This document shows, piece after piece, positions 27,031 through 41,559 of a stretch of 64,000 nucleotides of DNA. Within the stretch, counting starts at the first letter, position 1, and each line of letters starts with the position of its first letter. The notes below the pieces were generated by a model. That model was given only the letters and a program-made list of their open reading frames with translations, made no database searches and was not told where the DNA came from. Origin of the DNA: Shinella fusca (GTDB lineage Bacteria; Pseudomonadota; Alphaproteobacteria; Rhizobiales; Rhizobiaceae); assembly GCF_014203155.1 (NCBI RefSeq), contig NZ_JACHIK010000004.1, positions 248,001 through 312,000 on the forward strand, read 5' to 3'. Made by a program: the position numbers and the translations under genes.

Positions 27031-27846
27031 TCAGAGTATATACGTTCGGCCGAGATTTTCGACAGCCCGCCGGCTCATCACGGCGACGAGATGGGCGCGG
27101 TAGTCAGCCGGCGCATGCATGTCCCCCATCATCAGCGACGGATCGAGGGCCAGTCCGTCGAGCGCCGCCGGCGTGAGGTCGTCGGCAAGCCGCTCCTCCG
27201 CCTCGCTCCAGCGGAAGACGCCGCCATTGCCCGCCCCGGTGATCGCCACGCGGACCTTCCCGTCTCGATGCCTGCTGACGAAGGCCGCCGCCATGGAATA
27301 GCGGGAAGCGGGATTGCGGAACTTCGCATAGCCGGCGATTTCCGGGATCCTGAATTCGATGCGGACGAGAATCTCGCCCGGCGCCAGCGCTGTCGTATAG
27401 AGCCCCTGGAAGAAGTCGTCCGCGGCAAGGACGCGCCGGTCGGTGTGGACGACAGCGTCGAGCGACAGGACGGCGGAGGGATAGTCGGCGGCCGGATCGT
27501 TGTTGGCCGTCGAGCCGCCGATCGTGCCCATGTGGCGCACCTGGACATCGCCGATGGAGCCGGCAAGGCCGCAGAGCGCGGGGATGGCCGCCTTCACGTC
27601 CTCGCACGCCGCAACGGCGGCATGGCGCGTCGCCGCGCCGATGACGACCCGGTCCGCCGTCACCGCGATGCCGGAAAGCTCGGGGATGGCGCGGACGTCG
27701 ATGAGATGCTGCGGAGCGGCAAGGCGGTTCTTGAGCGCAGGGATCAGCGTATGGCCGCCGGAAAGATAGGAGGCGTCCTCGGAGCCTTCGTAGAGGGCGA
27801 CGGCTTCGGCGATGGTCTTCGGCCTGTGATATGTCGTTGCGTACAC
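27031..27846 (-). CDS. Molybdenum hydroxylase FAD subunit (CoxM type)
   Basis: 271 residues. The FAD-binding motifs are YLSGGHTLIPALKNRL and TIGGSTANNDPAADYPSAVL, followed by the CO-dehydrogenase flavoprotein C-terminal domain. It passes electrons from the iron-sulfur subunit to the final acceptor. It is the last of five genes transcribed together: large subunit, binding-like protein, CoxG, FeS subunit and this one, with gaps of only 12 to 21 bases. Confidence 0.92.
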   Translation of the reverse strand: MYATTYHRPKTIAEAVALYEGSEDASYLSGGHTLIPALKNRLAAPQHLIDVRAIPELSGIAVTADRVVIGAATRHAAVAACEDVKAAIPALCGLAGSIGDVQVRHMGTIGGSTANNDPAADYPSAVLSLDAVVHTDRRVLAADDFFQGLYTTALAPGEILVRIEFRIPEIAGYAKFRNPASRYSMAAAFVSRHRDGKVRVAITGAGNGGVFRWSEAEERLADDLTPAALDGLALDPSLMMGDMHAPADYRAHLVAVMSRRAVENLGRTYIL

Positions 27847-27860
27847 GGGTTTCCCTCCCC

Positions 27861-28352
27861 TTACTCGGCGGCCGCGGCGTGGGCCGCGCGATGCTTTTCC
27901 GCAGCGTCCAGCACCGCCTTGACGATGTTGTGGTAGCCCGTGCAGCGGCAGATATTGCCTTCGAGCTCGTGGCGGACGGTCGCCTCGTCGAGCACGCCGT
28001 CATGACGGCGGATCATGTCGACGCTCGCCATGATCATGCCCGGCGTGCAATAGCCGCACTGCAGGCCGTGATGCTCGTGGAAGGCCTGCTGGACGGGGTG
28101 CAGGGTCCCGCCCTCGGCAAGGCCCTCGATGGTCGTCACCGCCGCGCCGTCGGCAGCGACGGCGAGCACGGTACAGCTCTTCACCGCGACGCCGTCGAGA
28201 TGGACCGTGCAGGCGCCGCACTGGGTCGTGTCGCAGCCGACATGGGTGCCGGTGAGCCCGACATGCTCGCGGATGAACTGGACGAGCAGCGTACGGTCCT
28301 CGACCTCCCGCGTTTCCGGCTTGCCGTTGATCGTGATGGTCACTTGGGACAT
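27861..28352 (-). CDS. Molybdenum hydroxylase 2Fe-2S subunit (CoxS type)
   Basis: 163 residues from ATG at 28352, with AAGGAAG upstream; an in-frame ATG at 28367 is less well placed. The plant-type cluster is seen in HVGCDTTQCGACTVHLDG, and the second cluster in CGYCTPGMI and NICRCTGYHNI. It carries electrons from the molybdenum site to the FAD subunit, whose gene follows after 14 bases. Confidence 0.95.
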   Translation of the reverse strand: MSQVTITINGKPETREVEDRTLLVQFIREHVGLTGTHVGCDTTQCGACTVHLDGVAVKSCTVLAVAADGAAVTTIEGLAEGGTLHPVQQAFHEHHGLQCGYCTPGMIMASVDMIRRHDGVLDEATVRHELEGNICRCTGYHNIVKAVLDAAEKHRAAHAAAAE

Positions 28353-28368
28353 GGGGCTTCCTTTCACG

Positions 28369-28953
28369 CTACCGGACGATCAGCGCCGCGACGATGACGA
28401 CGGCGACAACCGCAAGGCCGACGAGGAGATAGGGCGAGCGGCCTTGCGGCGGCACGGCCTCCACGGACGGGGCGGCCTCGACGACAGCAGCGGGAGCCAC
28501 ATCGTCCTGCGCCGCCGATGCCGCCTGCGCGGCCAGCTTCTCGAAGAATTCGTCGGCCAGCTTCTTGGCGGTGGAATCGATGAGCCGCGCGCCGAGCTGG
28601 GCGAGCTTGCCGCCGACCTGCGCCTTGGCGAGATAGGTCAGCACGGTCTGCGCGCCGTCTTCGGCAAGGTGCACGTCCGCACCGCCCTTGGCGAAACCGG
28701 CGACGCCCCCTTTTCCCTCGCCGGAGATCGTCAGGCTTTCCGGCGCGTTGACGTTGGAAAGCGCGACATTGCCGGCGAACGTCGCCTTGACCGGGCCGAT
28801 CTTCGTCGTGACGCGGGCGGCAAAGCCGGTCTCCGGCGTGCCTTCCAGGCTGTCGCAGCCCGGGATGCAGGCGCGAAGCACGGCGGGATCGTTGATGAGC
28901 GCCCAGACCTCTTCGCGCCGGGCGGCGATGCGGTATTCGCCCTTCATATCCAT
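28369..28953 (-). CDS. CoxG-like SRPBCC protein with C-terminal membrane anchor
   Basis: 194 residues. Residues 1-145 are the SRPBCC/CoxG domain (MDMKGEYRIAARREEVWALI, then VLRACIPGCDSLEG). An Ala/Pro linker leads to one membrane segment at about 172-191 (YLLVGLAVVAVVIVAALIV). In CO dehydrogenase clusters, CoxG recruits the enzyme to the cytoplasmic membrane. Here it probably anchors the hydroxylase encoded in the same operon so that electrons reach the respiratory chain. Confidence 0.88.
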   Translation of the reverse strand: MDMKGEYRIAARREEVWALINDPAVLRACIPGCDSLEGTPETGFAARVTTKIGPVKATFAGNVALSNVNAPESLTISGEGKGGVAGFAKGGADVHLAEDGAQTVLTYLAKAQVGGKLAQLGARLIDSTAKKLADEFFEKLAAQAASAAQDDVAPAAVVEAAPSVEAVPPQGRSPYLLVGLAVVAVVIVAALIVR

Positions 28954-28974
28954 GGACTGTTCTCCTCCGTCACG

Positions 28975-29910
28975 TCACTTGCCGCCGGCGACCGCCTCGA
29001 AGAACGAGAGGTCGAGGTATTTTTCGATATCGGTGAGCGTCTCGCCGCCCTTGCCGTAGCGCGAGCGCAGGTCGAGGACCGTCCTCATGCCGTCCGGCAG
29101 GATGTGCGCGCCGGGGGTGAGGCCGGATCGCGGCGAAAGCAGGCTCGCCATGATCGACGGCACCGCCGCCGGCTGGATATCCGGCATCCGGCTCTGGAGG
29201 AGCGCGGCACCGGCCTCGCGGTTCGCCGGATCGAGCGTCCAGGCAAGCCCCTTCAGATAGGCGCGGATGAACGCCTTCACCGTTTCCGGGTTTTCCGCGG
29301 CATAGGCGCGCCGGGCGGCGATGGTCCCGCCCTGGTAGCTGGCGAAATGGTTCGAGGAGACGTCAAGCACGTTGAAGCCCGAGCGCCGGGCGATGCTGGT
29401 GAAGGGCTCGATGGTGAGGGTCGCGGCATGGTCGCCGGCCTTGACCGACTGCCAGCGCTGCGGCGTCGCGCCGACGGCGGCGAAGGTCACGTCGTCACGG
29501 CCAAGGCCGCTCTTCTCCATCATGTCGAAGAGCACGAAGGCAAAGCCGGTGGTCAGCGCATCGAGCGCGATCGAGCGGCCCTTCAGGTCCGCATAGGCCT
29601 TGACCTCGGGCGCCGTGACGATGGCGAGCTCGAGCTGGGTCGCGCCCGTCAGCACCACGTAATCAGGATCGACGCCGTCCGCTGCCGCGCCCTGCCCTTC
29701 CCCGTAGGCGACGACATTGTCGAAGGCGGTGAAGACGATGTCGAATTCGCCGGCGGCGGTCCGTTCCGCCTGCGCGACGGAACTTGCGGTCAGCGCCAGT
29801 TCGACCGCAAGGCCCTCGTCGGCGAAATAGCCCTTCTCGATGGCGGCGAAGGTCGGCAGGTTCGGCGCGCCCGGAAACGCGATGATGCGGACGGGCTTCA
29901 GGTCACTCAT
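28975..29910 (-). CDS. NMT1/SsuA-like binding protein without signal peptide
   Basis: 311 residues starting MSDLKPVRIIAFPGAPNLPT. The whole length matches the NMT1/THI5-like binding-protein fold (IEKGYFADEGLAVELAL, then KGRSIALDALTTGFAFVLFDMM). The signal peptide found in true transporter subunits is missing: the start has a strong GAGGAGGAC site, and the preceding gene ends only 12 bases away, so a longer N-terminus is ruled out. It sits between the large subunit and CoxG. I infer a cytoplasmic protein that binds the pathway substrate, as a sensor, carrier or feeder of the hydroxylase. A role with no ligand is also possible. Confidence 0.85.
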   Translation of the reverse strand: MSDLKPVRIIAFPGAPNLPTFAAIEKGYFADEGLAVELALTASSVAQAERTAAGEFDIVFTAFDNVVAYGEGQGAAADGVDPDYVVLTGATQLELAIVTAPEVKAYADLKGRSIALDALTTGFAFVLFDMMEKSGLGRDDVTFAAVGATPQRWQSVKAGDHAATLTIEPFTSIARRSGFNVLDVSSNHFASYQGGTIAARRAYAAENPETVKAFIRAYLKGLAWTLDPANREAGAALLQSRMPDIQPAAVPSIMASLLSPRSGLTPGAHILPDGMRTVLDLRSRYGKGGETLTDIEKYLDLSFFEAVAGGK

Positions 29911-29922
29911 TCAAAGTCCTCC

Positions 29923-32349
29923 TCAGGACGCGTTGCGTCCAGTGTTCATGGCGCGCCAGACGGTCGCCGGCGTGACCGGCATCTGGATGTCCGTGACGCC
30001 GAATTCCGAAAGCGCGTCGACGACGGCGTTGACGACGGTGGCGAGCGCCGGCGTCGTGCCGCCCTCGCCGCCGGCCTTGATGCCGAGCGGGTTGGTCGGC
30101 GAGAAGACCTCGGCGATCTCGCAGGTGAAGCTCGGCATGGTATCGGAACGCGGCATGCCGTAGTCCATCAACGAGCCGGCCAGCGGCTGGCCGCTCTCCG
30201 CATCGATGGCGCAGAGCTCCCACATGGCCTGGCCGACGCCCTGCGCGATGCCGCCATGGGTCTGGCCGTGGACGATCAGCGGATTGATGCAGCGCCCGAC
30301 ATCGTCGATCGACGTGTAGCGGACGATCTGCACATGGCCGGTTTCACGGTCGACCTCGACCTCGCAGATCGCCGCGCCGTTCGGGAAGACCGGTGTGTGC
30401 ATCTCGTTGTCGCGCACGACGCGCAGCGTGCCGTGGCTGGCGCGGGTGCGCCGGCCGAGCTCAAAGATATCGACCGCATGATTGGTGTTGCGCTGCCTGA
30501 AGACGCCGCCCTCGAAATCGATCTCGCCGGGCGTGGTGCCAAGCAGCTCGGCGGAGCGCCTGCGGCCTTCCGCCAGAAGATCGGCCGAGGCCATGGCCAT
30601 GACCGTGCCGGCATGGCGCATCGAGCGGCCGGAATGCGAGCCGCCGCCGACGCTGACGATGTCGGTGTCGCCGATGACGATCCAGACCTTCTCGACCGGG
30701 ACCTGCAGCATATCCGCCACGACCTGGGCAAAGCTCGTCTCATGGCCCTGCCCGCTCGGCTGGGTGCCGATGACGACCTCGACGGTTCCGTCGTCCTTGA
30801 TCTCGATCTCGGCGCGCTCCTTCGGCGTGCCGATGGAGGATTCAACATAGTTGGCGAAACCCCGGCCGAGCAGCTTGCCGCGGGTGGCGGCCTCCGCCTT
30901 GCGGGCCTCGAACGTCGACCATTCGGCAAGCTCGAGCGCCCGATCCATGTTCTTTTCGTATTCGCCGCTGTCGTAGACCGAGCCGACCGCATTGACATAG
31001 GGCATGGCGGAGGGCGGAACGAGGTTCATGCGGCGCAGTTCCAGCTTGTCGAAACCGAGCTGGTCGGCAGCAAGCTCGCACATGCGCTCGATGGCGAAGG
31101 TCACTTCCGGGCGGCCGGAGCTGCGGTAGGCCTGCGTGCACATCGTATTGGAGAACACGGCGCGGGCACGCAGCGTCGCATAGGGAATGTCGTAGGAGCC
31201 GGTGATCAGGCCGGAGCCCTTGCTGAGCGGCGAGAGCGAGACGGCCCGGCCGCCGACATTCGACAGGTTGTCGGCGCGCATCGCCAGGAACCTGCCGTCC
31301 TTGCGGATCGCCAGTTCCACCTTGGTCACGAGGTCGCGGCCCTGATAGTCGGTCAGGAAGGATTCCGAGCGGGTGGCGGTGAACTTCACCGGCCGGCCGA
31401 GCTTACGGGAAGCCCAGAGCACGAGGCCGAATTCCACATAGACGCGGTTGCGGGTGCCGAAATTGCCGCCGACGTCGAAGGACAGGACGCGCAGGTCCTT
31501 CGGCTCGATGCCGAGGACCTTGGAAAGCTCGTTCTTCTGGCGCACCGCCCCGCCGCTGCCGGCATAGAGCGTGTAGCGCTTCGTCTCCGGATCGTAGGAG
31601 CCGAGCGAGGCGCGCGGCTCCATCGTCACGCCGGTGACGCGATGGATGTGGAATTCCGCCTTGACCACATGGTCCGCCGCGGCGAAGGCGGCATTGGTGC
31701 CCTCGACGTCGCCGAAGGTCGTGTCGATGAAGACGTTGCCCGGAACCTCGTCCCAGACGGCCGGCGCGCCCGGCTCGGCGGCCTTGGCCGTATCCGTCAC
31801 GAAGGGCAGCTCCTCCCAGTCGACCATCACCTTTTCCGCGCCGTCGGCGGCCTGCGCCGCCGTCTCGGCGACGACGATCGCCACCGCCTCGCCGACATGG
31901 CGGGCCTTGTCGGCAGGCAGGAGGTAATGCGGGCCGGTAAAGGCGTGGCTGCCGTCCTTGGCCCTCAGCTTCATGTCGAAATTGGTGGAGGGGACCGGAT
32001 TGTGCGGGATCGGCAGGATGTTGTCGGCAAGGATGTCCTCGCCCGTCAGCACGAGAAGGACGCCGGGGCTTTCCAGGGCTTCCGTCTTGTCGATGCCGTT
32101 GATGCGCGCATGCGGATAGGGCGAGCGGACGATGGCCGCATAGGTCTGGCCGGGCAGCGAGAAATCGTCGGAAAACCGGCCCTTGCCGGTGATCAGGCGG
32201 CCGTCCTCCTTGCGCGGGAGGGGCTTGCCGACGTGGCGGAACAGCGCCTCCTGCACCAGCTTCATCTCCGGCGAAAGCTCGGCCGGCTTCGGCTGTTTCA
32301 GCGGATGCACGACCTCGCCGGCCGAGGCGGTGTTCTGCAGACTGCTCAT
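29923..32349 (-). CDS. Molybdenum hydroxylase large subunit (xanthine dehydrogenase family, not CO dehydrogenase)
   Basis: 808 residues with both molybdopterin-binding domains. After a 35-residue N-terminal extension it reads VGKPLPRKEDGRLITGKGRFSDD. The substrate-site loop is CTQAYRSSGRPE; form I CO dehydrogenases have AYxCSFR there and form II AYRGAGR, so CO oxidation is unlikely. Near the C-terminus, GIKAGGEGGTTPA carries the Glu expected of the hydroxylase active site (GxGE). The enzyme should hydroxylate an aromatic or N-heterocyclic carbon. It leads the five-gene operon and diverges from the UbiD-type gene. Confidence 0.92.
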   Translation of the reverse strand: MSSLQNTASAGEVVHPLKQPKPAELSPEMKLVQEALFRHVGKPLPRKEDGRLITGKGRFSDDFSLPGQTYAAIVRSPYPHARINGIDKTEALESPGVLLVLTGEDILADNILPIPHNPVPSTNFDMKLRAKDGSHAFTGPHYLLPADKARHVGEAVAIVVAETAAQAADGAEKVMVDWEELPFVTDTAKAAEPGAPAVWDEVPGNVFIDTTFGDVEGTNAAFAAADHVVKAEFHIHRVTGVTMEPRASLGSYDPETKRYTLYAGSGGAVRQKNELSKVLGIEPKDLRVLSFDVGGNFGTRNRVYVEFGLVLWASRKLGRPVKFTATRSESFLTDYQGRDLVTKVELAIRKDGRFLAMRADNLSNVGGRAVSLSPLSKGSGLITGSYDIPYATLRARAVFSNTMCTQAYRSSGRPEVTFAIERMCELAADQLGFDKLELRRMNLVPPSAMPYVNAVGSVYDSGEYEKNMDRALELAEWSTFEARKAEAATRGKLLGRGFANYVESSIGTPKERAEIEIKDDGTVEVVIGTQPSGQGHETSFAQVVADMLQVPVEKVWIVIGDTDIVSVGGGSHSGRSMRHAGTVMAMASADLLAEGRRRSAELLGTTPGEIDFEGGVFRQRNTNHAVDIFELGRRTRASHGTLRVVRDNEMHTPVFPNGAAICEVEVDRETGHVQIVRYTSIDDVGRCINPLIVHGQTHGGIAQGVGQAMWELCAIDAESGQPLAGSLMDYGMPRSDTMPSFTCEIAEVFSPTNPLGIKAGGEGGTTPALATVVNAVVDALSEFGVTDIQMPVTPATVWRAMNTGRNAS

Positions 32350-32449
32350 GGCTCCTCCCTATTCCGTATGCGCGGCGGCCGGGCCGTTTCCGGCATCCAC
32401 CGCCTTCTTGCACACGGCATGCGCTATGCCGTTGCTCTTCGTATTAATG

Positions 32450-32470
32450 TATGACAGTATGGCGGTCATA
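32450..32470. promoter_or_regulatory. GntR-type operator 1
   Basis: TATGAC at 32450-32455 and GTCATA at 32465-32470 are perfect complements separated by 9 bases, in the 202-base divergent region between the hydroxylase large subunit and the UbiD-type gene. The site shares TATGACA-N5-GCGGTCA with the one before the gntR gene. Confidence 0.75.
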
Positions 32471-32551
32471 ATGCAAACGAAAAGATCGCCCTTGACAGGA
32501 GGGCGATTGCCATAGCCGGCTCGGCGCTTCGGAAAGGTTTGGGAGAACAAC

Positions 32552-34180
32552 ATGACAGCATCCGCGCGCAAGGCGCCGCTCGACTTGCAGGAGCATATCG
32601 AGAGACTGGAGGCCAAGGGCCTCATCACCCGGATCCAGGTTCCGATCGACAAGGACAGCGAGCTGCATCCGCTGGCGCGCTGGCAGTTCCAGGGCGGCCT
32701 GCCGGACGAGCAGCGCCGCGGCTTCCTCTTCACCGACGTGAAGGGCGCCAGGGGCGAGAACTACGATATCCCGGTCGCCGTCGGCGTCCTTGCCGCTTCG
32801 CCCGCCATCTACGCCGCCGGCCTCGGCGTTTCCGAAGAGGAAATCGGCGACGTCTGGGTCAATGCCATGGAACACCCCATCGACCCGGTCACGGTCGAGG
32901 ACGCGCCCTGCCAGGAAGTCGTCATCACCGGCGACGAGTTGAGGCAGGAGGGCAAGGGCCTCGGCTCGCTGCCCGTGCCGGTCTCCACGCCCGGCTTCGA
33001 CAGTGCCCCCTATTTCACCGCCACGCTCTGCATCACGCGGGACCCGGAAAACGGCATCCGCAACATGGGCACCTACCGCGCCGCCCTCAAGGCGGAAGAC
33101 CGCCTCGGCGTGCGCATGGCGAGCCGCCTGTCCGGCGCCGGCGGCTACCAGCACTGGCTGAAATACCAGAAGATGGGCAAGCCCATGCCCTGCGCCATCG
33201 TCATCGGCTGCGCGCCCGCCGTCCTCTTCACCGGCCCGCAGAAGTTGCCGATCGACCAGGACGAGCTCGGCGTCGCCGGCGGCCTGATCGGCCAGCCGAT
33301 CCGCATCGTCAAGTGCAAGACCATCGACCTCGAGGTGCCGGCCGACGCGGAAATCGTCATCGAGGGCCTGATCGACCCGGTCCTGCTGGAACCGGAAGGC
33401 CCGTTCGGCGAAAGCCACGGCCATGTCGCGCTGGAAGACTTCAACATGTCCATGCAGGTGACGGCGATCACCCGCAAGAAGAAGCCGGTCCTCGTCTCCA
33501 TCGTCAGCCAGGTCACGCCGAGCGAATCGAGCGTGCTCAAGCGCGTGGCCTACGAGCCCCTGTTCCTCAACCACCTGAAGAAGGTGCTGAACGTCAAGGG
33601 CATCAAGCGCGTCGTCATGCATGAGCCGCTCACCAACATCCGCAAGGTGATCTTCCTGGAATTCGACCGCTCGGCGCCGCAATCGGAAATCTGGCGCGGC
33701 CTGCAGGGCGCGGCGACGCTGCAGGCCCAGTGCGGCAAGATCGTCATCGCCGTTTCCGACGATATCGACAGCCGCAACGCGGACGCCGTCTTCTGGTCGC
33801 TCGCCTACCGGGCCAACATGATCGACGACGTGCATGTCACGCCCTACCGCTCCGGCGGCCACGGGCCGAAATCCGGCTCGAAGAACGCCGAGGGCACGCT
33901 GCTGATCGACGCGACGCTGAAGGCGCCCATGCCGCCGCTGGCGCTTCCGGCCGAGCCCTACATGGTCAGGGCGCGCAGGATCTGGGAGGACCTCCAGCTT
34001 CCCCGCCTCTCGCCGCAGCCGCCGTGGCACGGCTATTCGCTGGGCGACTGGAGCGACCTGTGGACCCGGTTCGCCGATGCGGCCGTTGCCGGCGACTGGC
34101 GCGAGACGGGCGAGAACACGCTGGCGCGCCGACAAGGCGGCATGAAGCCGGAAACGCCGGTGCGCGACATCGAAAAATAG
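32552..34180 (+). CDS. UbiD-family prenyl-FMN decarboxylase
   Basis: 542 residues, longer than E. coli UbiD. The prenylated-FMN-binding region is clear: LLEPEGPFGESHGHV, preceded by IVKCKTIDLEVPADAE and a typical N-terminal part (DLQEHIERLEAKGLITRI). UbiD enzymes reversibly decarboxylate aromatic, heteroaromatic or unsaturated acids. The cofactor maker UbiX is two genes downstream and a GntR regulator lies between. It is divergent from the molybdenum hydroxylase with a GntR-type operator in the gap. Because of this catabolic setting I do not read it as the ubiquinone enzyme. Substrate unknown. Confidence 0.92.
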   Translation: MTASARKAPLDLQEHIERLEAKGLITRIQVPIDKDSELHPLARWQFQGGLPDEQRRGFLFTDVKGARGENYDIPVAVGVLAASPAIYAAGLGVSEEEIGDVWVNAMEHPIDPVTVEDAPCQEVVITGDELRQEGKGLGSLPVPVSTPGFDSAPYFTATLCITRDPENGIRNMGTYRAALKAEDRLGVRMASRLSGAGGYQHWLKYQKMGKPMPCAIVIGCAPAVLFTGPQKLPIDQDELGVAGGLIGQPIRIVKCKTIDLEVPADAEIVIEGLIDPVLLEPEGPFGESHGHVALEDFNMSMQVTAITRKKKPVLVSIVSQVTPSESSVLKRVAYEPLFLNHLKKVLNVKGIKRVVMHEPLTNIRKVIFLEFDRSAPQSEIWRGLQGAATLQAQCGKIVIAVSDDIDSRNADAVFWSLAYRANMIDDVHVTPYRSGGHGPKSGSKNAEGTLLIDATLKAPMPPLALPAEPYMVRARRIWEDLQLPRLSPQPPWHGYSLGDWSDLWTRFADAAVAGDWRETGENTLARRQGGMKPETPVRDIEK

Positions 34181-34283
34181 CGCCGGCACGAAAAAACACG
34201 GCAGGCGGCCCGCCGGTCGCCTGCATCGCGGCTTGCCCGGTTCCCCGAATATGGCAAGAGATGACGAAAGCGTGATTTTCTCG

Positions 34284-34304
34284 TATGACAATCATGCGGT
34301 CACA
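34284..34304. promoter_or_regulatory. GntR-type operator 2
   Basis: TATGAC at 34284-34289 and GTCACA at 34299-34304, 9 bases apart, 29 bases before the gntR start. It agrees with operator 1 at TATGACA, GCGGTCA and the final A. Confidence 0.75.
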
Positions 34305-34332
34305 CCGAGATGAGCCCCGTCACGAGGACACC

Positions 34333-35016
34333 ATGAGCACACCGTTTGAAGAAACCTTGAACCCGCTGGTCCACGAACCTGCTCCCTTGCGCAACAAGAT
34401 CATGAATTCGCTGCGCAAGGCGATCGAGACCGGCGCGCTGGAGCCGGGCACGCACCTGGTCGAGAAGGACCTGTGCGAGAAGCTCAATGTCAGCCGCACC
34501 TCGCTTCGCGAGGCGCTGCGCCAGCTTCAGGCCGAAGGTGTCCTCACCGACCACAACAACCGCGGCCTGACCGTGGTGACGGTGACCCGCACCGATGCGG
34601 ACAACATCTACCGCATCCGCGGCGTGCTGGAGCCGCTCATCGTCGAGCAGTTCATCGAAAACGCCCCGGACGAGGAAATCGAGGCCCTGAAAAAGCAGAG
34701 CGAACGGCTGAAGAAAGCCTATCTGGAAGGCAATGCCGAAGAGATCGTCGCCACCAAGCGGGAGTTCTACGACCGCATCTGCACGGGAGCGCGCAATCCC
34801 ATCGCCTTCGACCTTCTGAAGAAGCTCACCCTGCTGACCTCTCCTCTTCGCCGCAGCTCGGTCGTGCGCCCGGAGCGCCGGAACCAGAGCATTCAGGAAA
34901 TCGACGCGATCGTGGCGGGCATCGCCGCGCGCGACAAGGCCGCGGCCAAGGCGGCCGCCGAGGCGCATGTCGCCAATGCGGCCGTGTCGGCCTTCCGCGT
35001 CGCCTATACGTCGTAA
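34333..35016 (+). CDS. GntR/FadR-type regulator with FCD domain
   Basis: 227 residues from ATG at 34333 with GAGGACACC upstream. The N-terminal winged helix reads LRNKIMNSLRKAIETGALEPG then LCEKLNVSRTSLREALRQLQAEGVL. The C-terminal helical FCD domain (about 95-220) contains the acidic and His/Arg positions of organic-acid sensors (DADNIYRIRGVLEPLIVEQF). It lies between the UbiD and UbiX genes and carries the operator shared with the UbiD promoter, so it probably governs the pathway and itself. The effector is likely an aromatic acid or breakdown product. Confidence 0.9.
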   Translation: MSTPFEETLNPLVHEPAPLRNKIMNSLRKAIETGALEPGTHLVEKDLCEKLNVSRTSLREALRQLQAEGVLTDHNNRGLTVVTVTRTDADNIYRIRGVLEPLIVEQFIENAPDEEIEALKKQSERLKKAYLEGNAEEIVATKREFYDRICTGARNPIAFDLLKKLTLLTSPLRRSSVVRPERRNQSIQEIDAIVAGIAARDKAAAKAAAEAHVANAAVSAFRVAYTS

Positions 35017-35031
35017 CCGCAGGACAATCGC

Positions 35032-35598
35032 ATGCGCCGCTTCATCGTCGCCATCACCGGAGCTTCCGGCATCATCTACGGCGTGCGGGCGCTGCAACTG
35101 CTTCGCGCGGTCGAGGATATCGAGACCCATGCGGTGATCTCGCCCTCGGCCTACCGCACCGCGCAGGACGAGATCGACATGAGCGCCGACGCGCTCAAGG
35201 GACTTGCCGACGTGGTCTACAGCCACAAGGACATCGGCGCGGCCATCTCCTCCGGTTCGTTCCGCACCGCCGGCATGCTGGTCGCTCCCTGCTCGGTGAA
35301 GACCCTGAGCGGGATCGCCAACTGCTACAACGACGAGCTGATCGTGCGGGCTGCGGATGTCTGCCTCAAGGAGCGCCGGCGCGTCGTGCTGCTCTTCCGC
35401 GAAACGCCGCTCCATGCCGGCCATATCGCGCTGATGGACCAGGCGACCCGCAACGGCGCGATCGTCATGCCGCCGGTCCCCGCCTTCTATACGATGCCGA
35501 AGACCATCGACGACATGGTCACGCAGACGGTCGGGCGGGCGCTCGACCTCTTCGACATTCACCTGCCCGCCGTCAGACGCTGGAAGGACGACGGCTGA
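35032..35598 (+). CDS. ubiX: UbiX/Pad1 flavin prenyltransferase
   Basis: 188 residues, the normal length. FMN-binding motifs are ITGASGIIYGVR at the start, APCSVKTLSGIANCYNDELIVRAADV in the middle and LLFRETPLHAGHIALM later. The enzyme attaches a dimethylallyl group to FMN, making the prenyl-FMN cofactor of UbiD-type decarboxylases. It follows the gntR gene by 15 bases and belongs to the UbiD transcription unit. Presence of a dedicated copy supports a catabolic rather than housekeeping role. Confidence 0.93.
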   Translation: MRRFIVAITGASGIIYGVRALQLLRAVEDIETHAVISPSAYRTAQDEIDMSADALKGLADVVYSHKDIGAAISSGSFRTAGMLVAPCSVKTLSGIANCYNDELIVRAADVCLKERRRVVLLFRETPLHAGHIALMDQATRNGAIVMPPVPAFYTMPKTIDDMVTQTVGRALDLFDIHLPAVRRWKDDG

Positions 35599-35614
35599 CC
35601 GTAAGCCCGGGGTG

Positions 35615-36112
35615 TTACAGCGCGGCGAGCGCGCCCTCGATGACGGCAAGGGCCTGCCGCGCCTGCGCATCCGGCTCGCCCTCGCGGAAATGACGCAGGA
35701 CGAGGGAAAGATTGTCCCCGGCCGGGCCCGGCGCGGCGCCGGCAAGCGCGGCGCCCTCGGCCTCCAGAAGCGCAAGCGCGATCTTTTCCGACGCAAGCTC
35801 CACGGCCTTGACGCCGTTGCGCAGGTTCTCGGTCTGCGGGCCCGGGGCGGGATGGGGGCCGGTCTTCAGCCGGCGGCGCACCGCCCGCAAGGGCTTGATC
35901 ACCTCGTCGCGCCAGGCCTTCACGAGGCCGTCGATCCGTGCGAGTTCGCTTGGCGTCAACGCCACGGAGGAGCTGGCAAGCCAGGCGGAGAACAGAAGGA
36001 CCGGCACGTCGACGCCGCTTTCGTCCTGAAGGACGAGGCAGGCGTCGCTGACGCCCGGGGCGCCGTAAAGGCGCAAGGCAAAGGCCCAAAGCCCCTCATT
36101 CTCGCTCGACAT
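35615..36112 (-). CDS. TIGR02444-like protein of unknown function
   Basis: 165 residues, starting MSSENEGLWAFALRLYGAPGVSDACLVLQDESGVDVPVLLF in pattern (short helical domain with GV-DACLVLQD-GVDV), which matches the uncharacterised TIGR02444 family. Soluble, no signal peptide. It converges on the ubiX gene, with 16 bases between the stops. It lies 63 bases downstream of the XdhC-like gene on the same strand. Members are widespread in proteobacteria without a known role. Confidence 0.75.
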   Translation of the reverse strand: MSSENEGLWAFALRLYGAPGVSDACLVLQDESGVDVPVLLFSAWLASSSVALTPSELARIDGLVKAWRDEVIKPLRAVRRRLKTGPHPAPGPQTENLRNGVKAVELASEKIALALLEAEGAALAGAAPGPAGDNLSLVLRHFREGEPDAQARQALAVIEGALAAL

Positions 36113-36175
36113 GATATCCCTCCCCTGCTGCGCCCGATGTACCAGACCCGCTTGCGGCAGGAAAGGATCTCCCGC

Positions 36176-37084
36176 CTATGCCGCTTCTACCTGCGCAAGT
36201 TCGGCAAGGATGGAGAGCGCGATGTCGCCGGCGCTCTTGCTTCCGGCGAAAAGGCCCGCGGGCCCATGGATCCGCTCGCGGCTCGCGCGGTCGAAGCCCA
36301 GCGCCTCCAGCTTTTCAAGGCGCAGGCGATGGGTCGCATGGCTTCCCATCGCGCCGAGATAGAAGGCATCGGTCGCAAGCGCGGCGGGAAGCAGCGCCAT
36401 CTCCCAGTCGTGGTCGTGGAACATGAAGACGATTGCCGTCAGCGCATCGGCTTCGAGGGGCGGCGTGCGGCCGTGCCCCGTCAGGCGCACCGTCGCAGCG
36501 CCGAGCGCTGCCAGCCGCTCCAGCGTCGGTTCATCATAGGACCAGCCGATCACCTCGAAGCCCGCGACCTGCGCCATCCGGGCGAGCTGGACGGTCGCCG
36601 GCCCGACACCGGCGATAATCAGCCGCTTGCGCGGCCGGTAGAGACGGACCATGCGGGCATTGAAGCGATTGTCGGGATCGATGGGAAGCTCCGCCGTCTG
36701 GCGCTGCTTCAGCCGCCTGTCGATGGCGATCAGGCTCTCCGCGCCGATGCCGACGTCGAAGAAGAGTTCGATCGCGCTGCCGCAGGGAAGCTGGATATCG
36801 AAATATTTCGATCCGCGGCCGTAGCGGACCAGCCGGTTCCCGCTGGCGGCGATGGCATCGAGCGCTTCGGCGACGACGGCCCGTTCGATGCAGCCGCCGG
36901 AGAGATAGCCCACCCAGTCGCCCGTTTCGGATACGGCCATCTGCGCGCCGGGAAAGCGCGGCGAGGAGCCCTCGATCCTGACGAGCGTGACAAGGGCCAG
37001 CCTCTCGCCGCGCGAGAGCCGTTCGATCGCGAAATCGAGGACGTAGTCATCGAAGACGTCCCATTCGCCCTGCCCGTTTCGCAT
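36176..37084 (-). CDS. XdhC/CoxI-family molybdenum cofactor maturation protein
   Basis: 302 residues. The N-terminal XdhC domain has VRIEGSSPRFPGAQMAVS and YLSGGCIERAVVAEAL; the C-terminal Rossmann domain (about 160-285) begins RKRLIIAGVGPATVQLARMA. XdhC-type proteins bind molybdenum cofactor, promote its sulfuration and insert it into xanthine-dehydrogenase-family enzymes. The client here should be the hydroxylase at 27031-32349. It is downstream of the alpha/beta hydrolase by 16 bases, forming an operon with the hydrolase and isochorismatase-like genes. Confidence 0.9.
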   Translation of the reverse strand: MRNGQGEWDVFDDYVLDFAIERLSRGERLALVTLVRIEGSSPRFPGAQMAVSETGDWVGYLSGGCIERAVVAEALDAIAASGNRLVRYGRGSKYFDIQLPCGSAIELFFDVGIGAESLIAIDRRLKQRQTAELPIDPDNRFNARMVRLYRPRKRLIIAGVGPATVQLARMAQVAGFEVIGWSYDEPTLERLAALGAATVRLTGHGRTPPLEADALTAIVFMFHDHDWEMALLPAALATDAFYLGAMGSHATHRLRLEKLEALGFDRASRERIHGPAGLFAGSKSAGDIALSILAELAQVEAA

Positions 37085-37100
37085 CGCCGTCAGCTCCCGT

Positions 37101-37904
37101 TCAGGCCACGAGGTCTTTCAGCGCGGCGGCGATGCGCTCCGGAACCTCCAGCGGCGAGAAATGCCGCACGCCGTCCATCACCTCGATGCGGGCGCCCCTG
37201 ATATTGTCGGCAAGATAGCCGGCCATGTCCGGCGGCGTGGCGTAGTCTTGCGAGCCGACGCGGATTTCGCAGGGGAAGGTAAAGCCCGGGAGGAACGCCC
37301 GCAGGTCCGCCGCGCCGAGCATGGCGCAGGTCGCCGCATAGGCCGGCAGGTCGTTGGCGAGGAAGACGCCCACGGCCTGCTCCACGACGGCCGGGTTCGC
37401 CTCGCGGAAGGCATCGCCGAACCAGCGCGTCTTCTGGAAGCCGACCAGTGCGGAAAGGCCTTCGTTCCTCGCTTTTTCGGCGCGCTCGGCCCAGGCGGCC
37501 GGAGCGTTCTCGCCATACCAGGCGGTGGTGTCGAAAAGACCGAGCCCTCGCACCCGCCCGGAGTGCCGGCCGGCAAAGGCCAGAGAGACGCAGCCCCCCA
37601 TCGAGGCGCCGGCGACGATGGCCGAAGGCCAGCCGACATGGTCCATCAGGTCGGCGATGTCGTCGGCGAACTGCTCGACGCTGTAGGGGCCTTCCGGCTT
37701 GTCCGACCGGCCATGGCCGCGGCAGTCGAAGGTGAGCACGCTCGCCGTTCCCTCCAGCGCCTTGACGGTCGCGTCCCAGAACGTCTTGTCCATGGCGAGC
37801 GAGTGGACGAGGACGATGCGGCCGGAGCCGCTCCCCGGCACGAGGCGGTAGGAAAGGCGCGCGCCGTCCCGCGCCGTTGCGAAATCGGATCCTGCATTGG
37901 ACAT
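37101..37904 (-). CDS. Alpha/beta hydrolase (enol-lactonase or deformylase like)
   Basis: 267 residues. The nucleophile elbow is GASMGG (Ser near residue 100), the oxyanion region HSLAMD, and the C-terminal His lies in DGVRHFSPLEVP. The size and sequence resemble 3-oxoadipate enol-lactonases (PcaD), but the same fold includes N-formylmaleamate deformylases (NicD). With an amidohydrolase next door and a heteroaromatic hydroxylase nearby, hydrolysis of a ring-cleavage product such as an enol-lactone or N-formyl amide is plausible. Cytoplasmic. Confidence 0.85.
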   Translation of the reverse strand: MSNAGSDFATARDGARLSYRLVPGSGSGRIVLVHSLAMDKTFWDATVKALEGTASVLTFDCRGHGRSDKPEGPYSVEQFADDIADLMDHVGWPSAIVAGASMGGCVSLAFAGRHSGRVRGLGLFDTTAWYGENAPAAWAERAEKARNEGLSALVGFQKTRWFGDAFREANPAVVEQAVGVFLANDLPAYAATCAMLGAADLRAFLPGFTFPCEIRVGSQDYATPPDMAGYLADNIRGARIEVMDGVRHFSPLEVPERIAAALKDLVA

Positions 37905-37977
37905 TCTGGATTTCCTCTGTCGTCGTTGTGTCGATCCTGCCGGCGGCCGCTGCGGCCGCCGGTCCGGGCCCGGCGGA

Positions 37978-38724
37978 TCAGCCGGCCGCCGCGTGGGGCG
38001 CGCCCTTGGGAAGGTCGAACAGGCCGCGCGGCAGGCTTTCCATGAAGGCCAGCACTTCCGGGCTTTCGATCACGTCGGCGTATTTGGCGTTGAGGTCGCA
38101 GAGCGCCATCGCATGGCTCGCCTCGGACCGCTCGAAGCAGGCGTCCTCCACCATCGTCACCCGGTAATTGTGGCTGAAGGCGTCGACGACCGTCGCACGC
38201 ACGCAGCCGCTCGTCGCCGTGCCCGTGACGATGAGGCTGTCGCAGCCGAGCTGGGTGAGGTAGCCGAGGAGATTGGTACCGTGGAAGCCGCTCGGCTTCT
38301 GTTTATAGACCACGATATCCTGCGCACCCGGCGCGACCTGCGGCATGATCTCGTTGCCCTTCCGGTTCGACCCGGCGGGCTTTTCCCCGGTGCGGGCATT
38401 CTTCCACGCCCAGGCGCCGGCATCCCAGTTGTCGTCGCGGCGGATCCCGGTCGTGTAGATCACCGGCAGCTCGCGGTCGTGCGCGACGTCGATCAGCTTG
38501 CGGATGACCGGCAGGGCATCCCACGCCGCCTCCCCGCCGGACTGGCGCCAGCGCTTGATGGATTCGAGAACCGGCTCGCGCCGGTCGCCGCAGAAGGCGT
38601 AGTTCACGTCGATGACGAGCAGGGCGGGCCTTTTTCCAAATCCCTGCCGCACGCCGTAGCCGGCAAGCGCGAAGACCTGTTTATCCCGCTCCGTCAGGAA
38701 CTTGTCCCAGATTCTCTCAGCCAT
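37978..38724 (-). CDS. Isochorismatase-type cysteine amidohydrolase (maleamate or N-carbamoylsarcosine amidase like)
   Basis: 248 residues. The Asp-Lys-Cys triad is seen in LLVIDVNYAFCGD, YKQKPSGFHGTNL and GTATSGCVRATVVDA. The GCVRAT sequence around the cysteine is characteristic of N-carbamoylsarcosine amidase and maleamate amidohydrolase (NicF) rather than nicotinamidase. It should release ammonia from a small amide or carbamoyl compound. It is the first gene of a same-strand run with the alpha/beta hydrolase and XdhC genes and diverges from the transporter. Confidence 0.85.
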   Translation of the reverse strand: MAERIWDKFLTERDKQVFALAGYGVRQGFGKRPALLVIDVNYAFCGDRREPVLESIKRWRQSGGEAAWDALPVIRKLIDVAHDRELPVIYTTGIRRDDNWDAGAWAWKNARTGEKPAGSNRKGNEIMPQVAPGAQDIVVYKQKPSGFHGTNLLGYLTQLGCDSLIVTGTATSGCVRATVVDAFSHNYRVTMVEDACFERSEASHAMALCDLNAKYADVIESPEVLAFMESLPRGLFDLPKGAPHAAAG

Positions 38725-38799
38725 TCAATCCTCCCGAAACATGGACAAAACCGGGCAAGGCACGCCCTGCGCGCCTGCCGACTTGACTTATGCCACAGA

Positions 38800-38820
38800 T
38801 GTGTTTGTATGGCAAACACA
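38800..38820. promoter_or_regulatory. Inverted repeat TGTGTTTG-N5-CAAACACA in divergent promoter
   Basis: Perfect 8-base arms (38800-38807 and 38813-38820) in the 190-base gap between the amidohydrolase and transporter genes. TTGACT at 38783 could be a -35 element for the transporter. A lone TATGACA half-site of the GntR operator follows at 38824. Confidence 0.5.
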
Positions 38821-38914
38821 CATTATGACAAGCCTACATTGATGAGGCGATGTCGTGTGGCTCCGGCCCTCGAGGGCCCGAGGAACGATTCAAGGCTTTT
38901 GGGAGGAGGCGCAT

Positions 38915-39910
38915 ATGGTGTCCAGGATAGTTGTCGGCAGCCGCTGGTTCGCAATCGCGGGAGGCTTCGCCGCCGCGCTCGCATTCACCCCGGCTCATGC
39001 AGGAGAGGTCTGGAAACACGGCATCGTCGAGGCCAAGGGAGACTCGGGCTTCCTGTTCCAGGCCGCCGAAGGGGGCTTCGGCGAGAAGCGCGGCCTCGAT
39101 ATCGACATGGTCGAGTTTACCGGCGGGCCGACGGCCCTCAAGGCGCTCATCGCCGGCGAGCTCGACAGTTTCGAGGCAAGCCCCGTCGTGGCCTTCGCCG
39201 CCATGCACCAGAACGCCGACATCAAGATCATCGGCTGCGACTGGCCGGGCATGACCTACACGGTCTTCGCCGCCAGGGACATCAACTCGCCGGCCGATCT
39301 CAAGGGCAAGGCGATCGGCGTTTCGGCGCCGGGTTCGCTGCCGGCGCTCTTTGCGCAGCTCGCGCTGGAAGCGGCCGGGGTTGCCGCCACGGACGTGACC
39401 TATGCCAATGCCGGCGGCAGCGCGGACCGCGTGCGCGCCATCAGCTCCGGCGTCGTCGCCGCCGCGGCGAGCTCCAGCGAATTTGCCGTCAGCGCCGATA
39501 CGCTCAACGTCAAGCCGCTGCTCGCCGGCGCGGAAGTGACGCCCAAATTCGTCAAGGTCTGCATCATGACGACCGGTGCCAAGATCGCCGAGCGCCGCGC
39601 CGACATGGTGAACTTCCTCGCCGCCGAGATGGAGGGCCTTGCCCACGCCATCGGGAGCAAGGAGGCGATGGTCGCGCTGGCGCGCAAGGTCGCACACCTG
39701 CCCGAAGACGACAAGACGGCCGAATTCATCTACGATGAGGCGATAAAGTACAACGCGGTCTCCGCGACCCTCGATATCCCGCTGGAGAACCTGCAATGGA
39801 CGGACGACCAGATGGTCCGTCTCGGCGCGCTGCCGGAAAAGGCCGACGTCAGCACCTTCGTCGATACGAGCCTGCGCGAGGAAGCGCTGGCGGCCGTCGA
39901 AAAGAAGTAA
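38915..39910 (+). CDS. ABC solute-binding protein, SsuA/NMT1 family
   Basis: 331 residues from ATG at 38915, with GGGAGGAGG upstream. Unlike its relative at 28975-29910 it has a signal peptide (residues 1-29, cleaved after AHA). The mature part is SsuA/TauA-like (FQAAEGGFGEKRGLDIDMV, then DLKGKAIGVSAPGSLPALFA). Such proteins bind sulfonates, pyrimidine precursors or aromatic acids. It leads the three-gene importer and is likely to feed the neighbouring catabolic enzymes; the ligand is not identifiable from sequence. Confidence 0.92.
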   Translation: MVSRIVVGSRWFAIAGGFAAALAFTPAHAGEVWKHGIVEAKGDSGFLFQAAEGGFGEKRGLDIDMVEFTGGPTALKALIAGELDSFEASPVVAFAAMHQNADIKIIGCDWPGMTYTVFAARDINSPADLKGKAIGVSAPGSLPALFAQLALEAAGVAATDVTYANAGGSADRVRAISSGVVAAAASSSEFAVSADTLNVKPLLAGAEVTPKFVKVCIMTTGAKIAERRADMVNFLAAEMEGLAHAIGSKEAMVALARKVAHLPEDDKTAEFIYDEAIKYNAVSATLDIPLENLQWTDDQMVRLGALPEKADVSTFVDTSLREEALAAVEKK

Positions 39911-39935
39911 CGCGTTCATTCGAGGAGGATCCTGC

Positions 39936-40712
39936 ATGGCCCATCTGGAAGTGCAGAATATCGTCAAGACCTTCAGCACACGATCCGGCGTTGCGTTCGC
40001 ACGCGCGCTGGACGGGGTCTCATTCGACGTCGAGAAGGGCGAGATCATCGCGCTGATCGGCCCCAGCGGCTGCGGGAAGACGACCTGTCTGCGCATCATC
40101 ATGGGCCTCGAAACCGCATCGTCCGGCCAGGTTCGCGTGGCCGGGCGCGCGGTCTCGGGCTGCGGCTACGACCGCGGCATGGTCTTCCAGCACGCCGAGC
40201 TCCTGCCCTGGCGCAACACGCTCAGCAATGTCGGCTACGGCCTCGAGATGAAGGGCGTCAGGGAGCCGGAACTGTCGAAGGCGTCCAGCCACTATCTCGA
40301 GCTCGTCGGCCTTGGCCATGCCGCCAGGCGCAGGCCGCACCAGCTTTCGGGCGGCATGAAGCAGCGCGCCGGCATCGCCCGGGCGCTCGCCATCGACCCC
40401 GAGGTCCTGCTGATGGACGAGCCGTTCGGCGCGCTCGATTCCCAGACGCGCGAGACGCTTCACGGCGAGCTCCTGTCGATCCACGGCAAGACGGGCAAGA
40501 CGATCATCATCGTCACCCACGACCTCGACGAGGCCGTCATGCTGGCCGACCGCGTCATCGTGATGCAGAAGGGCGCGGTCAGCGAGATCGTCCCCATCGA
40601 GATCGGCCGCGACCGGCAGGACATGCGCGCCGTGCGCACGTCCGCGGAATATTCCAAGAAACGCACGTTGATCTGGGAAGCCCTCCACGATCACGAGACC
40701 CAGGCAGCCTGA
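39936..40712 (+). CDS. ABC transporter ATPase, SsuB/TauB type
   Basis: 258 residues. Walker A is GPSGCGKT near residue 43, Q-loop [14 protein letters not shown], signature LSGGMKQRA near 138, Walker [17 protein letters not shown] and H-loop [28 protein letters not shown] precedes the start. It lies 25 bases after the binding-protein gene and 13 before the permease gene. Energises the importer of the catabolic island. Confidence 0.93.
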
Positions 40713-40725
40713 GAGGATCGATACC

Positions 40726-41559
40726 ATGTCCACAGCAACGCAGCCCGACGGCGCGCTGTCCTCCGGGCAGGCCGAAACCGTAAACCGCCGCTGGTCCGTG
40801 CCGAACTGGATGATCACGACCATTTCCGTGGTCATCGCCCTCCTGATCTGGGAATATTTCGGCCGGCACGCCAATCCGCTGCTCGCCACCTACCCCACCG
40901 CGATCCTGGTGGCCGCCGGCAACATGTTCAGCGACGGACGGCTTCTCTCCGCGCTTCTCCAAAGCAGCCAGCCCTTCGTCGCCGGCTATATCGCCGCGGT
41001 CGTCCTCGGCATTCCGGCGGGCCTGCTGCTCGGCCGCTACCGCCTGTTCGAGGCCGGCTTCGGCATCTATGTCACCGCCGGCTACGCGACGCCGCTGATC
41101 GCCCTCGTCCCGCTGATGATCCTCTGGTTCGGGCTGGGCTTTGCGGTCAAGGCGGTCATCGTCTTCCTGCTCTCCTTCTTCCCGATCTGCCTGAATACGT
41201 GGTTCGGCGTGAAGGCCGTGCCGAAGACGCTGATCGAGGTGGGCACGGCCTTCTGCGCGCCGCAGTCGCAGATCATGCGCGGCATCATCCTGCCGGCGAC
41301 GATCCCCTATATCATGGCGGGCCTCAGGCTCGGGATCGGCAAGGCCGTGATCGGCATCGTGATCGCGGAATTCCAGACGGCGATCTCGGGCCTCGGCGGC
41401 ATCATCATCACCTCGGCCAACGCCTTCAGGACCGCCGAGATGTTCGTGCCGATCGTCCTGATCATGGTCATCGCGGTCGTCCTCACGGAACTCGTCGGCT
41501 CGCTCGAACGGATCGTCGCGCCCTGGCAGAGCGAGATCACGGGACAGGATTCCGCATAA
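40726..41559 (+). CDS. ABC transporter permease, SsuC/TauC type
   Basis: 277 residues with six membrane segments, the first at about 25-45. The coupling loop reads PKTLIEVGTAFCAPQSQIMRGIILPATIP. BPD_transp_1 domain of the nitrate/sulfonate/taurine group. Last gene of the importer operon, ended by a perfect terminator at 41590. Confidence 0.92.
   Translation: MSTATQPDGALSSGQAETVNRRWSVPNWMITTISVVIALLIWEYFGRHANPLLATYPTAILVAAGNMFSDGRLLSALLQSSQPFVAGYIAAVVLGIPAGLLLGRYRLFEAGFGIYVTAGYATPLIALVPLMILWFGLGFAVKAVIVFLLSFFPICLNTWFGVKAVPKTLIEVGTAFCAPQSQIMRGIILPATIPYIMAGLRLGIGKAVIGIVIAEFQTAISGLGGIIITSANAFRTAEMFVPIVLIMVIAVVLTELVGSLERIVAPWQSEITGQDSA

Follow-up and report, generated by a model that had tools for sequence, protein, structure and literature searches.

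In Shinella fusca, a block of approximately 16 genes encodes a three-part molybdenum hydroxylase (CoxL, CoxM, and CoxS), a UbiD-family decarboxylase with its UbiX flavin prenyltransferase, a GntR regulator, an α/β hydrolase, an isochorismatase-fold amidase, and an SsuABC-type importer (Table 1). The block occupies positions 25582-41559 of a 64,000-nt stretch of DNA (GCF_014203155.1, contig NZ_JACHIK010000004.1, positions 248,001-312,000, forward strand), hereafter the window. Comparison with related loci shows that this cluster is one coherent, patchily distributed catabolic unit. Our preferred interpretation, held tentatively at a probability of about 40%, is that it lets the cell take up and degrade a heteroaromatic carboxylic acid, most likely one with a furan- or pyrrole-type five-membered ring, by a route free of coenzyme A (CoA) and of oxygenases. 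We infer the chemical steps of this route from observed gene content, conservation, a promoter box, and catalytic residues. No description of the gene set was found in the open-access literature searched.

A Conserved Core With Variable Parts

A protein scan, which depends on exact short peptides and is biased toward close relatives, recovered 67 loci in named genomes that encode a related UbiD (63-95% identity). Locus content was established by gene calling and clustering, and by tblastn counts at fixed thresholds. By tblastn, the binding-fold protein SBP1 is present in 35 of the 67 loci, 26 of them with full 10-kb flanks. All 26 contain CoxL, and most contain CoxM, CoxS, and GntR (22 each) and UbiX (20), followed by the DUF2390 protein, the hydrolase, and CoxG (15 each), a TctC-type binding protein (14), a thiamine pyrophosphate (TPP)-dependent enzyme (12), the importer proteins SBP2, ATPase, and permease (9 each), TctA and the amidase (8 each), XdhC of the window type (3), and 3-deoxy-D-arabino-heptulosonate 7-phosphate (DAHP) synthase (2). 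The conserved core has the arrangement CoxL-SBP1-(CoxG)-CoxS-CoxM facing UbiD-GntR-UbiX, often with DUF2390 added, and is found in many Alphaproteobacteria; the few examples from Beta- and Gammaproteobacteria are metagenome bins carrying those labels. A molybdenum hydroxylase large subunit of some kind lies near UbiD in 34 of 37 full-flank loci, the exceptions being L035 and L070, which have none, and L046, which has only a partial match at the locus end (L numbers designate individual loci).

The first-pass annotation had presented the genes as a candidate catabolic island and proposed examining whether they co-occur elsewhere. They do occur together in related genomes, the core at dozens of other loci, which with the promoter box described below speaks against a chance grouping, and the claim that the genes belong together stands; the amidase, hydrolase, and importer are a variable part of the unit, found in only a subset of loci. 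Two forms of the unit can be distinguished. One carries the amidase and the SsuABC-type importer (the window, several Rhizobium, Phyllobacterium, and Paracoccus), the other a tripartite tricarboxylate transporter and the TPP enzyme, often with a second CoxL (Neorhizobium and roseobacters), and Sinorhizobium fredii NGR234, whose cluster is on pNGR234b, carries both.

The UbiD was found in one of 297 sampled genomes of the family, namely the window's own (E up to 1e-100), and in two of 21 genomes of the genus, the window's own and one at 57% identity. Such rarity in its own family and genus, set against copies 93-95% identical to it in Sinorhizobium, Neorhizobium, Xaviernesmea, and Rhizobium, points to horizontal spread. 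The genus relative carries the 57% UbiD together with the hydrolase, XdhC, DUF2390, the TPP enzyme, and a 485-aa protein that, judged by its N-terminus alone, resembles aldehyde dehydrogenase. Some copies of the unit appear damaged. The plasmid locus of Phyllobacterium zundukense (L072) looks degenerate: its UbiD match is broken into three, and although GntR and DUF2390 are kept, no molybdenum hydroxylase adjoins them. In Rhizobium jaguaris (L116) the UbiD match stops at residue 438 and two extra open reading frames (ORFs) precede GntR, suggesting that the ubiD gene is interrupted by an insertion.

Several loci have additional neighbors. In Neorhizobium petrolearium (L071, 8790-11411) a modABC molybdate importer adjoins the cluster, consistent with a molybdenum-dependent pathway, and the hydrolase is located further out. 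In L063 (13704-16061), L054, L055, and L060, UbiD and CoxL are followed by a TPP enzyme and a small protein, which in L063 have a twin-arginine-like start and a cytochrome-c-like sequence, respectively. In Ensifer canadensis (L152), a separate UbiD/UbiX pair has a Zn-dependent hydrolase and a dihydroorotase-family protein as neighbors and may represent another heterocycle pathway.

A Shared Promoter Box

A 13-bp box model was built from nine unique sites in the CoxL/UbiD promoters of 18 other loci, and the window was scanned with it. The top score in the 64 kb falls in the window's own CoxL/UbiD promoter (27.75 bits, at 32441) and the next non-overlapping match in the amidase/SBP2 promoter (17.69 bits, at 38817), while a match of 12.85 overlaps the CoxL/UbiD site and the best unrelated match reaches 9.7. 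The amidase/SBP2 promoters of the six other loci from which one could be extracted score 17.7-20.6, and the box is thus present in all seven such promoters found, the window included. This sharing ties the amidase and importer to the UbiD/CoxL unit, with which they are probably co-regulated through binding of the GntR protein to the box.

Catalytic Genes and a Proposed Route

The UbiD belongs to its family by profile match and by the catalytic network R176, E282, and E287, which aligns with 6h6x (which we take to be HmfF), with Hmf-type sequences, and with the E. coli sequence, the last having Asp at the final position. Its matches in the PDB include 6h6x (156 bits), E. coli UbiD (119), and the decarboxylase 6da6 (110), and it is distant from the genome's two further UbiD-like genes, sharing 31 and 35% identity with them. 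Its clade departs from HmfF at two positions. The specificity His of HmfF is replaced by Ser (Ser326 in the window; 59 of 59 clade members), and an Arg that follows it, presumed to act on the substrate, by Tyr (Tyr334; 55 of 59). According to one report, H297 is the substrate-binding His of HmfF, and a HudA variant with Ser in place of the corresponding Asn318 retained considerable activity and converted furan and thiophene acids to a greater extent (PMC7976604). By analogy, Ser at position 326 is compatible with a five-membered ring substrate, without proving one.

The hydroxylase is a member of the xanthine oxidase family, with large, FAD, and 2Fe-2S subunits and the catalytic Glu region GEGGT in the large subunit; identification of the latter as carbon monoxide dehydrogenase was rejected, its scores of 462 and 438 bits staying well under the respective cut-offs (950 and 991). 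The α/β hydrolase is nearest to PcaD, the 3-oxoadipate enol-lactonase (TIGR02427, 197 bits; best PDB match 2xua), and 20 aligned members (20 of 22, two truncated ones being omitted) all share its GxSMGG nucleophile motif and the Asp and His. In the amidase, which matches its family, D39, K141, and C174 align with 1nba as an Asp-Lys-Cys triad, presumably with the usual catalytic roles. Its best PDB match is N-carbamoylsarcosine amidohydrolase; it also matches 4l07 (E 6e-26) and 3ot4 (E 3e-23), which are labelled isochorismatase family only and which we take to be maleamate-amidase types.

These genes suggest the following route. UbiX would make prenylated FMN (prFMN) for UbiD, which would remove the ring carboxylate, and CoxLMS would put a water-derived oxygen on the carbon beside the heteroatom, helped by XdhC in maturation, CoxG in anchoring, and cytosolic SBP1 as a working partner; decarboxylation and hydroxylation could come in either order. 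A five-membered hydroxylated product would tautomerize to an enol lactone or lactam. The enol lactone derived from a 2-furoate would be a homologue of the PcaD substrate, shorter by one carbon. The PcaD-like hydrolase might then open the enol lactone or lactam with water alone, yielding a 2-oxo acid, and such opening would need neither a ring-cleaving oxygenase nor CoA activation. In many relatives the TPP enzyme would take over the 2-oxo acid, a product that fits both this enzyme and the 485-aa protein of the genus relative. Most simply, the amidase is the entry step and forms an entry module with the SsuABC-type importer, whereby an amide would be imported and hydrolyzed to the acid. The earlier proposal that the encoded activities fit the breakdown of a heteroaromatic carboxylate is upheld.

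The first-pass annotation had also noted that a CoA ligase and a ring-cleaving oxygenase are absent, and in the window cluster this was confirmed. For comparison, Hmf clusters were located on plasmids with the 6h6x sequence in Caballeronia, Cupriavidus necator, and Dinoroseobacter shibae, their naming resting on gene content, as the records do not so label them. Those of Caballeronia and D. shibae encode UbiD, UbiX, and three molybdenum hydroxylase subunits, and in addition an enoyl-CoA-hydratase-like protein and an AMP-binding ligase, whose positions lie past the end of the C. necator piece. Homologues of the ligase and the hydratase-like protein were found neither in the 64-kb window nor in 32 SBP1 loci, and a search of the 67 loci plus four plasmid loci gave one weak ligase match (L070, which lacks SBP1) and no hydratase match. 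In the clustered set of 35 SBP1 loci (32 of the 67, L071, L074, and the window), 20 families occur in at least five loci; all were identified, and none is a CoA ligase or a ring-cleaving oxygenase, with rarer genes only partly annotated and genes beyond 10 kb mostly outside view. An incomplete pathway and a different one had both been considered. Because the CoA-step and ring-cleavage genes seem to be lacking across the lineage, a different route is favored and an incomplete one is unlikely.

A number of observations weigh against the preferred interpretation. The hydrolase misses the PcaD NCBIfam cut-off (197 against 256 bits) and is not within 10 kb in 11 of the 26 full-flank SBP1 loci, and the window cluster has no TPP enzyme. 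Both positions compared with HmfF are changed in the UbiD, as is the one reported for HudA. Reading the amidase substrate from its context was attempted and abandoned, because relatives at 55-66% identity sit in unrelated settings, with a wide variety of transporters and enzymes as neighbors. Of 23 CoxL/UbiD promoter regions, three gave no box (L034, L038, and L039; a fourth region without a site, L019, is shortened by its called start), and a longer, 24-bp version fails to single out the amidase/SBP2 promoter. Finally, the P. zundukense locus has a gene for an intradiol dioxygenase approximately 1 kb from UbiD.

Competing Interpretations

The last observation would suit the strongest competitor, itself unlikely, namely breakdown of a benzenoid or phenolic acid, with UbiD acting on a hydroxyaryl acid, the molybdenum hydroxylase on an aldehyde or the ring, and cleavage encoded elsewhere, for example in a pca branch. 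The UbiD also matches VdcC- and dihydroxybenzoate-decarboxylase-type enzymes, the hydrolase is PcaD-like, pca genes lie approximately 20 kb away in N. petrolearium, and a PcaC-like protein is encoded at UbiD loci of more distant kinds. However, no aromatic ring-cleaving oxygenase recurs, and searching the 67 loci, the window, and the three other plasmid loci gave no homologue of the P. zundukense dioxygenase. Moreover, the main substrates of such molybdenum hydroxylases are N- or O-heterocycles, aldehydes, and carbon monoxide.

Less probable is a pyridine-carboxylate route of Nic/Pic type, in which hydroxylation and decarboxylation would be followed by a dioxygenase encoded elsewhere, a deformylase (the α/β hydrolase), and a maleamate amidase (the isochorismatase-fold protein). 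Such a route would agree with the amidase matches to 4l07 and 3ot4 and with the hydrolase adjoining the amidase, but the best PDB match of the amidase is N-carbamoylsarcosine amidohydrolase, the hydrolase is nearest PcaD, and the amidase is missing from 18 of the 26 full-flank SBP1 loci. A dioxygenase was found neither in the window cluster nor among the recurring families, the rest of the genome not having been searched.

Equally improbable is that two unrelated units happen to be neighbors, a UbiD/molybdenum hydroxylase pathway and a separate operon for amide import and hydrolysis. Amidase and importer do occur in just 8-9 of the 26 full-flank SBP1 loci, more distant amidase relatives are found elsewhere without UbiD, and the amidase block has opposite orientations in the window and in R. 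jaguaris and three Rhizobium loci. Against this stand the box in seven of seven amidase/SBP2 promoters and the same amidase-hydrolase-XdhC-importer block abutting DUF2390/UbiX in L010, L011, L061, R. jaguaris, and the window.

A diverged Hmf pathway for furan-2,5-dicarboxylate or 2-furoate, with CoA thioesters as its substrates and genes for the ligase and thioesterase located outside the cluster, is very improbable: although 6h6x is the best PDB match of the UbiD and the hydroxylase and CoxG are the same parts as in the Hmf-type enzyme, UbiD identity is only 30-31%, the HmfF His and Arg are replaced, the large subunit fused in Hmf is here encoded by two genes, and the Hmf-type ligase and hydrolase were not found in the window.

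SBP1, DUF2390, and the DAHP Synthase Copy

Three genes without an assigned step in the known pathways accompany the proposed five-membered-ring route. SBP1 directly adjoins the CoxL gene in 35 of 35 called loci. Judged by the hydrophobicity of the first 40 residues rather than by a signal-peptide program, it has no leader-like start (0.89-1.76 in 35 members, the conserved domain beginning at about residue 10), compared with at least 1.99 in seven of 12 SBP2 and at least 1.74 in 18 of 21 TctC proteins. The motifs FPGAPNLP, TAFDN, EPFT, and YQGG are invariant in 24 aligned members, and the AlphaFold model (predicted local distance difference test score, pLDDT, 93.5) has binding proteins as its best structural matches, and also the cytosolic enzymes Thi5 and DszB. 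A profile search of 385 genomes of the class, not seeded with UbiD, gave 14 matches, distributed over 12 genomes. Five of the 13 outside the window adjoin a 57-64% identical CoxL, one of these with UbiD; the remaining eight are not adjacent to CoxL and are mostly more distant, one lying on a 4-kb piece. The CoxL-adjacent copies being mostly without UbiD, SBP1 appears to go with the type of molybdenum hydroxylase more than with UbiD, and the pair suggests that some molybdenum hydroxylases have an unstudied partner for handling substrate or product.

Of the 31 loci having both genes, 25 have DUF2390 called as a neighbor of UbiX, and DUF2390 is also present in the D. shibae Hmf cluster. A search of 61 relatives for the DUF2390 family itself found six copies in four genomes, four of them at most 5 kb from a UbiD gene (two with unrelated UbiDs) and two not near one. 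A role dedicated to this cluster was rejected, because 116 of the 367 genomes sampled from the class contain it. At 20 places hand-picked, not randomly drawn, from the class list (pieces of 16-18 kb), UbiX is present in nine, in eight of these within approximately 3.2 kb, and UbiD was detected in none; UbiX is in none of 28 control pieces fetched for other reasons (Fisher P 1e-4, with the control unmatched). The AlphaFold2 model is all-helical (pLDDT 93.9) and has no significant match in the PDB (best E 2.2), and DUF2390/TIGR02444 is barely mentioned in the open-access literature searched. Its linkage to UbiX makes it a candidate prFMN accessory protein.

The DAHP synthase gene follows CoxM on the same strand after 54 bp, and the other DAHP synthase of the genome is 86% identical to it. 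Among 28 cluster-bearing genomes searched, three have two copies, the second always in the cluster, and one has none; the cluster of NGR234 also holds a copy. As a baseline, read from a list, two matches occur in two of 297 family genomes, one of them the window's own. In a tree, the window copy groups with the S. fredii cluster copies and with genes present as single copies in Neorhizobium and allied Rhizobium (support 99/96), and two Rhizobium cluster copies form another clade (100/100). With cluster copies in two separate clades, a foreign DAHP synthase has apparently been recruited at least twice. Our guess is that the copy protects aromatic amino acid synthesis as a target.

The most far-reaching version of our interpretation would join the CoA- and oxygenase-free five-membered-ring route to SBP1 as an obligate molybdenum hydroxylase partner, DUF2390 as a UbiX-linked prFMN maturation factor active beyond this cluster, and DAHP synthase as a spare shielding aromatic amino acid synthesis from the substrate or an intermediate; it is unlikely to hold in all of these parts at once.

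Gene Layout

All genes named in the first-pass annotation were found at their coordinates within 27031-41559 by gene calls and profile matches. It had omitted SBP1, DUF2390, and DAHP synthase, the last falling outside its start at 27031. Strand and spacing suggest four transcription units: CoxL-SBP1-CoxG-CoxS-CoxM-DAHP synthase (minus strand, 32349 to 25582), UbiD-GntR-UbiX (plus strand, 32552-35598), amidase-hydrolase-XdhC-DUF2390 (minus strand, 38724 to 35615), and the SBP2-ATPase-permease importer (plus strand, ending at 41559). A major facilitator superfamily (MFS)/MarR pair beyond 41634 has no counterpart, at the thresholds used, in any of the 67 related loci and was excluded from the unit. 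An empty-site comparison for an inserted island had no usable flanks, since most genus members lack the flanking genes as well, the MFS gene being present in 3 of 21 and the upstream binding protein in 1 of 21. A diaminopropionate ammonia-lyase family gene lies downstream of the cluster (44254-45483); no link between the two was found.

Table 1. Genes and promoter boxes of the cluster, in window coordinates.
Feature	Position	Strand	Support or remark
Class II DAHP synthase (second copy), probably the final CoxL-operon gene	25582..26976	-	TIGR01358 above cut-off
CoxM-type FAD subunit of molybdenum hydroxylase	27031..27846	-	
CoxS-type 2Fe-2S subunit	27861..28367	-	51% to Hmf-type subunit of Caballeronia
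CoxG-family protein	28369..28953	-	PF06240, E 5e-37; matches C-terminal domain of Hmf-type large subunit
SBP1, leaderless NMT1/THI5-type binding-fold protein, predicted cytosolic	28975..29910	-	PF09084
CoxL-type molybdenum-binding large subunit, AYRSSGR motif	29923..32349	-	
Box GTATTAATGTATG, CoxL/UbiD divergent promoter	32441..32453	+	Top box match in the 64-kb window
UbiD-family prFMN decarboxylase, clade with invariant TPSES	32552..34180	+	PF01977, E 5e-53
GntR/FCD regulator, candidate cluster regulator	34333..35016 (ORF open from 34285)	+	PF07729, PF00392
UbiX flavin prenyltransferase	35032..35598	+	NF004685 and TIGR00421 above cut-off
DUF2390/TIGR02444 all-helical protein, UbiX-linked	35615..36112	-	TIGR02444 above cut-off
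XdhC-type molybdenum hydroxylase maturation factor	36176..37084	-	PF13478, PF02625
α/β hydrolase nearest 3-oxoadipate enol-lactonase	37101..37904	-	TIGR02427, 197 bits (cut-off 256)
Isochorismatase-fold amidase with GCVRAT (D39, K141, C174)	37978..38724	-	PF00857
Box GTCATAATGTGTG, amidase/importer divergent promoter	38817..38829	-	Second-best non-overlapping box match in the 64-kb window
SBP2, exported SsuA/TauA-type binding protein	38915..39910 (ORF open from 38855)	+	
Importer ATPase (ATP-binding cassette type)	39936..40712	+	
Importer permease (ATP-binding cassette type)	40726..41559	+	

Comparison With Known Systems

The unit is widespread and includes a UbiD clade with its own signature, and its occurrence makes the question of the substrate testable in ordinary laboratory rhizobia. 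Several of its components have counterparts in described systems. SBP1 shares its fold with Thi5 and DszB and is likewise leaderless, but is only 12-15% identical to them, is linked to a molybdenum hydroxylase, and has invariant motifs of its own. DUF2390 resembles the prFMNH2 chaperone LpdD in being a small protein often encoded beside UbiX, and differs in being all-helical without a significant PDB match. According to the LpdD paper, further prFMN chaperones are to be expected, and the UbiX-DUF2390 link bears on the question, left open there, of other proteins that load or mature prenylated FMN (PMC10865409).

As in HudA/PA0254, the pyrrole-2-carboxylate decarboxylase, the proposed reaction would be a prFMN-dependent decarboxylation of a five-membered heteroaromatic acid, although the window UbiD matches that enzyme at only 74 bits and has Ser at the Asn318 position. 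The Nic/Pic pathways have a molybdenum hydroxylase, an α/β hydrolase, and an isochorismatase-fold amidase in common with the window. The window cluster differs from them in its UbiD-type decarboxylase, in the absence of a ring-cleaving dioxygenase, and in a hydrolase nearest to PcaD; 2,5-dihydroxypyridine dioxygenase and maleate isomerase are not among its annotated genes or the recurring families, the search having been confined to these. The first-pass annotation had drawn its comparisons with Nic and Hmf, but filing the cluster under either was rejected in view of residues (the HmfF His and Arg are replaced), of architecture (CoxL and CoxG are unfused), and of pathway genes not found in the loci searched.

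A close parallel is the Hmf pathway, which has the same parts, namely UbiD, UbiX, and a three-part molybdenum hydroxylase with a CoxG domain. In all three comparison clusters the Hmf-type large subunit is a CoxL-CoxG fusion, whose first 800 residues match the window CoxL at 31-34% and whose C-terminus matches CoxG at 37-40%, whereas in the window the two are separate proteins. With matching hydroxylase parts and neither a CoA ligase nor an enoyl-CoA-hydratase-like gene, the window has the parts for hydroxylation and not the CoA steps. In one account, the hydroxylated furan of the lower Hmf pathway is opened as a CoA thioester by a putative hydrolase (PMC12064950). The route proposed here would likewise open the ring hydrolytically after hydroxylation, and to the parts shared with Hmf the window cluster adds SBP1, GntR, the amidase, and DAHP synthase.

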